DNA from: Chloroflexota bacterium
GTDB lineage: Bacteria; Chloroflexota; Chloroflexia; Chloroflexales; Roseiflexaceae
DNA length: 46,555 bases
Assembly (NCBI GenBank): GCA_003670675.1
Contig: QWQY01000003.1
Coordinates: 1 to 46,555, forward strand
Reading direction: 5' to 3'
In this document: positions 40,717 through 44,044 of the stretch, piece after piece
How the letters are laid out: each line of letters starts with the position of its first letter
Position numbering within the stretch: position 1 is the stretch's first letter
Made by a program: the position numbers and the translations under genes
The notes under the pieces: generated by a model
Seen by the model: only the letters and a program-made list of their open reading frames with translations
Databases searched by the model: none
What the model was told of the DNA's origin: nothing

Positions 40717-42000
40717 TTAGGCGTGGGTGTAGGGGCGGATGACGTCGATGCCGCCCAGGTATGGGCGTAGGACGTCGGGGACCGTTATCGAGCCGTCGGC
40801 GTTCTGGTAGTTTTCCATGATTGCGATCATGGTGCGCGGGATGCCCAAGCCCGAGCCGTTGAGGGTATGGACGAATTCGGGTTTGGCGCCGGCTTCGGGG
40901 CGGAAGCGGATGTTGGTGGCGCGTGCCTGGAACGACTCGACGTTGGAGCACGAGCTGACCTCGAGCCATTCGTCTTGGCCAGGAGCCCAGACTTCGATGT
41001 CGTAGGTCTTGGTCGACGCAAAGCCCATGTCGCCGGTGCACAGGACCTTGGTGCGGTAGGGGATGCCCAGCAGGCGGCAGCTCTCTTCGGCATCGAGGCG
41101 CAGTTGCTCGAGTTCGGCATAGCTGGTATCGGGATGAACGAACTTGTACATCTCGACCTTGTCGAACTGGTGGCCGCGCTTGATGCCGCGCACATCGCGA
41201 CCGGCGCTCATTTTTTCACGGCGGAAGCACGGTGTATAGGCGCAGTAGCTGATGGGCAGCTGTGTGGCGTCGATGATTTCGTCGCGATGCAGATTGGTCA
41301 CCGGTACTTCGGCGGTGGGCACCAACCACAAATCCTCTTCGGCGTCGTGGTACAGATTATCGCGGAACTTGGGGAGCTGGCGTGCCCCCCACAGGCTCAG
41401 TTCTTTGACGACGAACGGGGTGTAGACCTCGCAGTAGCCCTGTTTGCCGTGCAGATCGAGCAGCCATTGGATGAGCGCGCGCTGGAGCCGTGAGCCCATA
41501 CCTTTGAGGATATAGAAGCGCGAGCCCGAGACTTTGACGCCGCGCTCGAAGTCGATGATGTCGAGCGACGTACCCAGTTCCCAGTGGGGTTTGGGGGCGA
41601 AGTCGAAGGTGCGCTTGGTGCCGATGGTCTGGATGACGACGTTGCCTTCTTCGTCGGCGCCGACGGGAACAGACTCGTGGGGCAGATTGCGGAGCTCAAG
41701 GATGGCGGCCATTTGGGCTGCCTCGAGGTCGTTGACCTGCTTGTCGAGGTCGCTGATGCGGTCGCCGAGGGCACGCATGTCGGCGATTTTGGTGTCGCGC
41801 AAGGCGGCGTCTTTGAGCGTGCTGATTTCTTTGGAGGTGGTGTTGCGGTGCGCCTTGAGGCGTTCGACCTCGGTCAGCAAGGCGCGGCGTTGTTCGTCGA
41901 AGCCCAAGACGACGTCGACGGCCGCAGGATCGACGCCCGCACGGGCGAGGGTCGCTTTGACGGCGTCGGTTTGTTCACGGAGGAGGCGGATGTCGAGCAT
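40717..42000 (-). CDS. serS: Seryl-tRNA synthetase
   Basis: [23 protein letters not shown]-terminal coiled coil; class II motifs [54 protein letters not shown]. Confidence 0.97.
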
Positions 42001-42036: not shown

Positions 42037-42540
42037 TCAGGGTGCCCGGGAGGCGATTTTGGTACACGTCCACGAGACCATCTTGCCGGCTTTGTATGGC
42101 GCCACGCCATGGAAGGTATAATCGTCGCCGTCAAAGACCATGTCGATCCAGAGGCGATCGGAATCCCACAAATTGAGGGTGTGCAGGTCGGCGACGGGGA
42201 TCCACTCGAGTGACCCTTCGTCGTTGTGGGTATGCACGTCGCCCGACCAGCGGTCGATACGAAAGACGAAGCCGAACCAGTCTTCTTCGTTTTTGCCGAA
42301 GCCGGGCCAGTTGAGGGTCCCGCGCAGGACCATGGCATCGACCGTGATGCCGGCTTCTTCGAACAGTTCGCGAGCCATCCCAGTGGCAGCGTCTTCGTTG
42401 GGGTCGAGTTTGCCGCCGAGGCCGTTGTACTTATCGAGATGGATGTCGTCGGGGCGCTTGTTGCGGTGTACCATCAGTACCCGGGTGCCGTCGGCCGACA
42501 TGATATAGCCCAGGGTAGCGACGATGGGTGTATAGGGCAT
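42037..42540 (-). CDS. NUDIX hydrolase (MutT/8-oxo-dGTPase-like)
   Basis: NUDIX box GGKLDPNEDAATGMARELFEEAGI. Confidence 0.9.
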   Translation of the reverse strand: MPYTPIVATLGYIMSADGTRVLMVHRNKRPDDIHLDKYNGLGGKLDPNEDAATGMARELFEEAGITVDAMVLRGTLNWPGFGKNEEDWFGFVFRIDRWSGDVHTHNDEGSLEWIPVADLHTLNLWDSDRLWIDMVFDGDDYTFHGVAPYKAGKMVSWTCTKIASRAP

Positions 42541-42548
42541 ACGGGCTC

Positions 42549-43046
42549 CTACCAGTGTGCGGCGACGGGTTTGCCCGTCAGGATTTCGTGGATACGGCGC
42601 AGGCAGCCGGGCTCGATGGCGTCGTCGAGCTCGTGGAAGACGCTCGGGTGGACAAAGCGGGCATCGGCGACCTCGATCGACCAGCGCGACGGCTGTGGGA
42701 TGGTGAGCTTGGGTGCGCGGGCGGCCACGGTGGTGACGATGCAGGGGTGGATTTCGTGGGCGCCTTCGCTGGTGCCATGGATATAGAAGAGTTTGGCGGG
42801 GATATTGACGCCGGCCTCTTCGTGGAGCTCGCGCCGGCCTGCTTCGATGACTGGTTCACGCGGGATGACGCCGCCGCCGGGGAGGGTCCAGGCGTATGGG
42901 CCGGCGCGGTGCCGCACCAGCAGGATGGCGTCGTTGGCATCGAGGATGATGACCCTGACGCCGGTGAGTTTGGGCTTGGTAATGGCCCAATAGACGTCCC
43001 GCCCGAAGCGCGCGACGATGTACAGGATACGCAGGACAACATCCAT
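42549..43046 (-). CDS. NUDIX hydrolase
   Basis: NUDIX box GGGVIPREPVIEAGRRELHEEAGV. Start MDVVLRILY at 43046, downstream of the T-box terminator. Confidence 0.88.
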   Translation of the reverse strand: MDVVLRILYIVARFGRDVYWAITKPKLTGVRVIILDANDAILLVRHRAGPYAWTLPGGGVIPREPVIEAGRRELHEEAGVNIPAKLFYIHGTSEGAHEIHPCIVTTVAARAPKLTIPQPSRWSIEVADARFVHPSVFHELDDAIEPGCLRRIHEILTGKPVAAHW

Positions 43047-43065: not shown

Positions 43066-43290
43066 AAAAAAACACCACCCATCCGGCGAAGGACGAGAGG
43101 CGAATGCCTTCGTGGTGCCACCTTCGTTCGTCATCTGGGTGATGACCTCGTTGCACGATAACGGGTGCAACCGATCCGAGTCATCCTCGGCCGCTCGGGA
43201 GTGGAATCGCTGTGTGACCTGTGTGCCTCGCACCAACCGGCACTTCTCTGGACAGGGGCGACAGCGACGTATCTCCGTCGTCGCGTTATG
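43066..43290 (-). ncRNA. T-box leader (predicted tRNA-Ser responsive, specifier UCC)
   Basis: Minus strand: CCAGAGAAGTGCCGGTTGGTGCGAGGCAC (AG-bulge/GGUG apical features), GATTCCACTCC with UCC at 43205-43203, T-box GAACGAAGGTGGCACCACG (43128-43111), terminator CACCACGAAGG...CCTTCGCCGGATGGGTGGTGTTTTTTT. Confidence 0.88.
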
Positions 43291-43295
43291 CACCT

Positions 43296-43324
43296 AGTAT
43301 ACGCGGATTTGCCCGCATTGGCAA
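43296..43324 (-). promoter_or_regulatory. Promoter of the T-box / NUDIX / serS operon
   Basis: TTGCCA - 17 bp - TATACT on the minus strand. Confidence 0.7.
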
Positions 43325-43459: not shown

Positions 43460-44044
43460 ATGGCGAATCAACTCAGACTGGTCATCGCAGACGACGAATC
43501 TATTATTCGAATGAATCTGCGCGAGACGCTGGTAGGACTTGGATATTTGGTGGTGGGCGATGCCGGCGACGGCGTCAGTGCAATCCATTTGGCCCGTGAA
43601 TTGCGACCTGACTTGGTCATCATGGACATCAAAATGCCCAAGCTCGACGGGATTGCAGCGGCCAAGGTTTTGACCGAAGAAAAAATCGCCCCCGTGCTGT
43701 TGTTGACGGCCTACTCGGACCGCGAACTGGTCGAACGCGCGCGTGATGCGGGTGTCGTCAACTATATCGTCAAACCGTTCCGCGAGGCCGAGTTGTTGCC
43801 GGCTATCGAAATCGCGTTGGCCCGCTTTGCGGAGTTCAACAGCATGGCCACCGAACTGGGTGATCTGAAGGACACCATGGAGACGCGCAAATTGGTCGAG
43901 CGCGCCAAAGGTGTGTTGATGGACACGCAGGGGCTGAAGGAACAAGACGCCTTCCGCAAGATCCAACAGCTGTCGATGAACACCCGCAAGTCGATGCGCG
44001 AAATCGCGCAGGCGATTCTGTTGACGGCCCAAATCGACAAATAG
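43460..44044 (+). CDS. ANTAR domain-containing response regulator (AmiR/NasT-like)
   Basis: Receiver LRLVIADDESIIRMNLRETLVGLGY...LVIMDIKMPKLDG; C-terminal ANTAR LVERAKGVLMDTQGLKEQDAFRKIQQLSMNTRKSMREIAQAIL. Confidence 0.94.
   Translation: MANQLRLVIADDESIIRMNLRETLVGLGYLVVGDAGDGVSAIHLARELRPDLVIMDIKMPKLDGIAAAKVLTEEKIAPVLLLTAYSDRELVERARDAGVVNYIVKPFREAELLPAIEIALARFAEFNSMATELGDLKDTMETRKLVERAKGVLMDTQGLKEQDAFRKIQQLSMNTRKSMREIAQAILLTAQIDK

Follow-up and report, generated by a model that had tools for sequence, protein, structure and literature searches.

The window, a 46,555-nucleotide stretch of Chloroflexota DNA, carries on its minus strand a serine T-box leader followed by the genes nudA, nudB and serS. 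With a probability of about 0.93, the leader is a class I transcription-terminating T-box riboswitch that controls the three genes as an operon, serS being its target and the two NUDIX hydrolase genes most likely passengers. A serine T-box in this place had been proposed by a sequence-only reading of the same DNA; the proposal is borne out, and every available sequence test agrees with it. The anatomy of the leader, its conservation, its match to tRNA and the order of the genes can all be read from the sequence.

Anatomy and conservation of the leader

The covariance search of the window with the Rfam T-box model RF00230, which the sequence-only reading had suggested as a check of the minus strand, gives a significant full-length match at 43290-43086 (81.9 bits, E 2.5e-18, model positions 1-219 of 219), although the score lies below the gathering score of 93 bits. 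A search of the whole genome finds the identical place, with an E value of 2.2e-18. The default Rfam scan of the window at the gathering threshold reports no T-box because 81.9 bits falls short of 93. Two further T-boxes of the same assembly score 89.9 and 80.5 bits, also below 93, and most T-box leaders of the genus reach 60-93 bits against RF00230. The miss in the default scan is a matter of the threshold, and the serine T-box leader is confirmed as real.

The leader RNA (43086..43290, minus strand) consists of Stem I, Stem II, Stem IIA/B, Stem III and the antiterminator, a class I organization supported by RF00230 and by covariation. It is preceded by the sigma-70-type promoter TTGCCA-17-TATACT (43296..43324, minus strand) that the earlier reading had pointed out, and which matches the consensus at 10 of 12 positions in a pattern scan; a TATAAT or TATACT box is found at the corresponding place in most relatives in the leader comparison. 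The AGAGA bulge of the distal Stem I, likewise predicted, is situated at 43249-43245 (minus strand), where it aligns to the RF00230 consensus, and it is invariant in alignment A3. The serine specifier UCC (43203..43205, minus strand) is placed by the RF00230 alignment within the Stem I specifier loop and occupies residues 2-4 counted from the loop end, the position that TBDB uses as the specifier (PMC7778990). It is followed by A 43202 and then by the lower Stem I helix CUCC. The A after UCC, to which the sequence-only reading had drawn attention, is thus present in the window, but it is not a conserved purine: the base 3' of UCC is A or C among 29 serS leaders, and C in many relatives. Stem II, the Stem IIA/B element (CCGUUA) and Stem III are aligned to the RF00230 model.

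The T-box sequence AAGGUGGCACCACG (43111..43124, minus strand) contains the tRNA-acceptor bulge UGGC at 43120-43117. It folds into an antiterminator of standard form (43087..43126, minus strand; -15.3 kcal/mol), in which CGAAGG/CCUUCG and ACGA/UCGU, helices 7 and 8 of the covariation count, enclose the seven-nucleotide bulge UGGCACC. The competing intrinsic terminator (43066..43118, minus strand; -21.0 kcal/mol), also found by the pattern scan, is formed by pairing of the T-box segment GCACCAC with GUGGUGU just 5' of the U run, U7 at 43072-43066. An intact T-box and a U7 terminator, as claimed from the letters alone, are both present. Comparison of the two folds shows that they are mutually exclusive. 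The expression platform is transcriptional, not translational. The fold energy of the whole leader is not better than that of shuffled sequences (z -1.08) and is uninformative. The leader shares with the class I transcriptional T-boxes of RF00230 the full model, AGAGA, the specifier loop, Stem IIA/B, the T-box bulge and the antiterminator/terminator pair; it is G+C-rich and lies below the curated cut-off, but is the same in kind.

Covariation was counted over 43 pairs in 14 distinct leaders, against 500 shuffles and slid controls. Standard pairs occur in 90% of the cells; 19 pairs change on both sides, giving 67 double-change cells. None of the 500 shuffles reaches the paired percentage or either of the double-change counts. 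The slid controls pair in 33-47%, far lower, although this comparison is tilted towards the counted structure by its derivation from the sequence of the window itself. Further pair types are no more numerous than in the shuffles. Both UCC and UGGC are invariant in the 29 aligned serS leaders, which represent four families within the order. The close relatives are Roseiflexaceae, mostly metagenome bins from freshwater, and the window is accordingly placed in this family of Chloroflexota. The leader has no match in the plasmid collection searched.

A strict T-box motif missed the leaders of the Roseiflexus type, among which a relaxed motif together with inspection found one that is intact (in the sister genome G023) and three relics. 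The relics, ahead of nudA in genomes G013, G021 and G019, are decayed serine T-boxes (L068, L067 and L101, at about 2690-2960 when read in the direction of serS). Their antiterminator stems remain and AGAGA is eroded; a clear terminator with T6 is kept in two of them, and UGGC reads UAGC in G021 or CGGC in G019. It is extremely improbable that the leader in the window has similarly decayed and no longer switches, as is seemingly under way in these three genomes. The relics themselves and the score below the Rfam cut-off would fit such a state, but the key elements are all intact both in the window and in all ten serS leaders of the same genus, and similar scores are obtained for the pheS and glyS leaders from this genome.

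Match between the leader and tRNA

A pattern based on TGGAAAG proved too strict for tRNA-Ser(GGA) and was mostly empty; the tRNAs were identified with RF00005 and ARAGORN. In the window's own assembly, which is 72% complete, tRNA-Ser(GGA) was not found. In two genomes of the same genus (G010 and G006) this tRNA ends in GCCA, with G73, and pairs with UGGC by Watson-Crick pairing, as the sequence-only reading had expected of tRNA-Ser. The tRNA-Ser(CGA) of the own genome also has G73 and fits UGGC. The tRNA-Ser(UGA) of G010 (L147 374-459) has U73, as against G73 in the GGA, GCU and CGA isoacceptors of that genome, and by its sequence would not fit UGGC.

Five T-box targets occur in the genus, trpS, pheS, glyS, ileS and serS, named by eye from the translated downstream frames. 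The variable base of UGGN is C for trpS, U for pheS, G or A for glyS, U for ileS and C for serS. The discriminators read are G73 for Trp, A73 for Phe, C73 or U73 for Gly, A73 for Ile (own genome) and G73 for Ser. To judge from these readings, the variable base fits the cognate discriminator across all five targets.

The glyS leader, whose specifier is GGC, shows this relation within a single gene. Eight such leaders of one genus were compared (L003, L264, L265, L269, L290, L293, L297 and L300). The leader carries UGGA in G002, G003, G008 and G009, where tRNA-Gly(GCC) ends in UCCA, and UGGG in G000, G005, G007 and G010, where it ends in CCCA, so that UGGG/UGGA tracks C73/U73 in eight of the eight genomes in which both were read. 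In G002, G008 and G009, tRNA-Gly(CCC) retains C73 beside the UGGA leader, showing that the glyS leader tracks the particular isoacceptor to which its specifier corresponds. The switch is a compensatory change between two RNAs, possibly a single event on the genus tree. The pattern is the one expected of a working contact between acceptor and bulge.

In the proposed mechanism, the anticodon of uncharged tRNA-Ser(GGA) would pair with the UCC specifier while its 3' GCCA end would pair with UGGC and stabilize the antiterminator, allowing RNA polymerase to continue through nudA, nudB and serS. With charged tRNA, the terminator, the more stable of the two folds, would form instead. A shortage of serine would thus turn on serS, whose product charges tRNA-Ser. 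This response to tRNA is what we infer from the leader.

The probable operon and the genes between switch and synthetase

The order NUDIX-NUDIX-serS behind the T-box, described by the sequence-only reading, is confirmed. The first gene, nudA (42549..43046, minus strand), encodes a NUDIX hydrolase of 165 residues (PF00293, E 4.3e-13), which has only distant similarity to any solved NUDIX protein and is without a close characterized relative. The second, nudB (42037..42540, minus strand), encodes a strongly conserved MTH1/MutT-like NUDIX hydrolase of 167 residues (PF00293, E 1.9e-16). Its best solved relatives are MTH1/NUDT1 (5otn, E 7e-11) and a MutT protein, with which it shares the NUDIX box GX5EX7REUXEEXGU (present in alignment A1) and sequence similarity, at low identity. 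Neither NUDIX protein matches an NCBIfam equivalog above its cut-off. The third gene, serS (40717..42000, minus strand), is preceded by an AAGGAG ribosome-binding site and encodes a seryl-tRNA synthetase of 427 residues (TIGR00414, 479.6 bits against a cut-off of 301.65, E 9e-144). The specifier UCC, the discriminator G73 and the downstream gene agree, as had been claimed. Adjoining the leader, in the divergent direction, is a gene whose product is a response regulator containing an ANTAR domain, which is an RNA-binding antitermination domain (window 43460-44044, plus strand).

The U run is separated from nudA by 19 nucleotides, nudA from nudB by 8 and nudB from serS by 36, and a pattern scan found no terminator-like sites between the three genes. 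The tight spacing and the lack of an internal terminator argue for a single operon running from the leader to serS, in which the genes would be co-transcribed. The only promoter-like site within it, TCGACA-17-GATTAT, lies inside nudB at 42146-42118. It is highly unlikely that serS is driven mainly from this site, leaving the T-box chiefly in control of the NUDIX genes: the site is weak, with 9 of 12 matches, which is near the chance expectation of a scan, and the association of the leader with serS is kept where the NUDIX genes are absent.

The region upstream of serS was compared in 53 related genomes and the window. An intact-looking serS T-box is found at 30 loci. The same genus provides ten, all of those testable, and the rest of its family seven; a second, a third and a fourth family contribute four, seven and two. 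At 23 of these loci nudA and nudB lie between the T-box and serS, and at the other seven different genes do. In the one locus of the second family that was read out in full, a glycosyltransferase gene comes first; in the third, Herpetosiphonaceae-like family the interval holds small membrane-protein genes and no NUDIX gene. At two Herpetosiphon-type loci (L087 2421-3984 and L064 2980-3953, read in the direction of serS) the NUDIX genes are replaced by two or three genes for small membrane proteins. Conversely, nudA-nudB-serS occurs without a detected T-box at 16 loci, some examined by covariance search and the rest by motif alone, one of them covering no more than about 1 kb ahead of nudA. The three loci with T-box relics come in addition to these 16.

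Since a T-box without NUDIX genes and NUDIX-serS without a T-box both occur, the bonds of serS to the T-box and to the NUDIX genes are separable, and it is for this reason that the NUDIX genes are read as probable passengers. The conservation of NUDIX-serS order that the sequence-only reading had proposed to check in relatives is evident, with and without the T-box, so that its description of the arrangement as unusual was overstated: it is typical of the lineage. Its further suggestion, that the NUDIX genes come under the control of uncharged tRNA-Ser, would follow from the gene order; the emphasis placed on it was weak, since in most of the order the NUDIX genes adjoin serS regardless of the T-box, and no sign of selection for such control is apparent in these sequences.

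The order nudA-nudB-serS is kept across several genera, which, together with the strong conservation of the MTH1-like nudB, might mean that the NUDIX genes are not passengers and that starvation for serine purposely increases, along with SerRS, the clean-up of nucleotides or the removal of dinucleoside polyphosphates that synthetases produce. This is unlikely, given that each linkage persists without the other, as described above, and that glycosyltransferase or small membrane-protein genes also fill the interval. Homologues of nudB with about 60% identity occur in other phyla, in Lysobacterales and Myxococcota among others, none of them beside serS in a check of neighbouring genes. A functional bond between the two hydrolases and SerRS in this order of bacteria, with the serine T-box raising them alongside serS, is improbable. 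If it exists, the hydrolases could, for example, clear dinucleoside polyphosphates or damaged nucleotides that accumulate when SerRS is without serine, and the link would join nucleotide sanitation to amino-acid starvation.

Relation to known T-boxes

One study gives serS as one of the commonest T-box targets in Firmicutes, present in most of them, and describes Chloroflexi T-boxes ahead of ileS and trp genes in Dehalococcoides (PMC2494555). Another T-box study also takes in the Chloroflexi phylum (PMC3766115). The present leader shares phylum and mechanism with these Chloroflexi T-boxes, for which the main texts mention no serS example. In the literature, supplementary tables excluded, no description of a Chloroflexi serS T-box or of a NUDIX-serS operon was found, and priority is not claimed; a search for Nudix together with seryl-tRNA synthetase returned no paper. 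Predictions for Clostridium include Ser(UCC) leaders, and on serA of Paenibacillus polymyxa a Ser T-box has been tested (PMC8002221). Serine specificity, mechanism and the serS target are common to the Firmicute T-boxes and the one described here. However, two NUDIX genes precede serS here, and whereas the P. polymyxa serA leader combines AGC with UGGU, which would pair with G73 only by wobble, the present leader combines UCC with UGGC, a Watson-Crick match.

The serine T-box described here adds to a known family, and its mechanism is already known. With it, the known range of serine T-boxes that use a UCC specifier grows to take in the freshwater Roseiflexaceae and the order to which they belong, and it shows that the Rfam cut-off hides real T-boxes in Chloroflexota. 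It also provides an example of an operon in which the middle genes vary while the switch and the synthetase stay.
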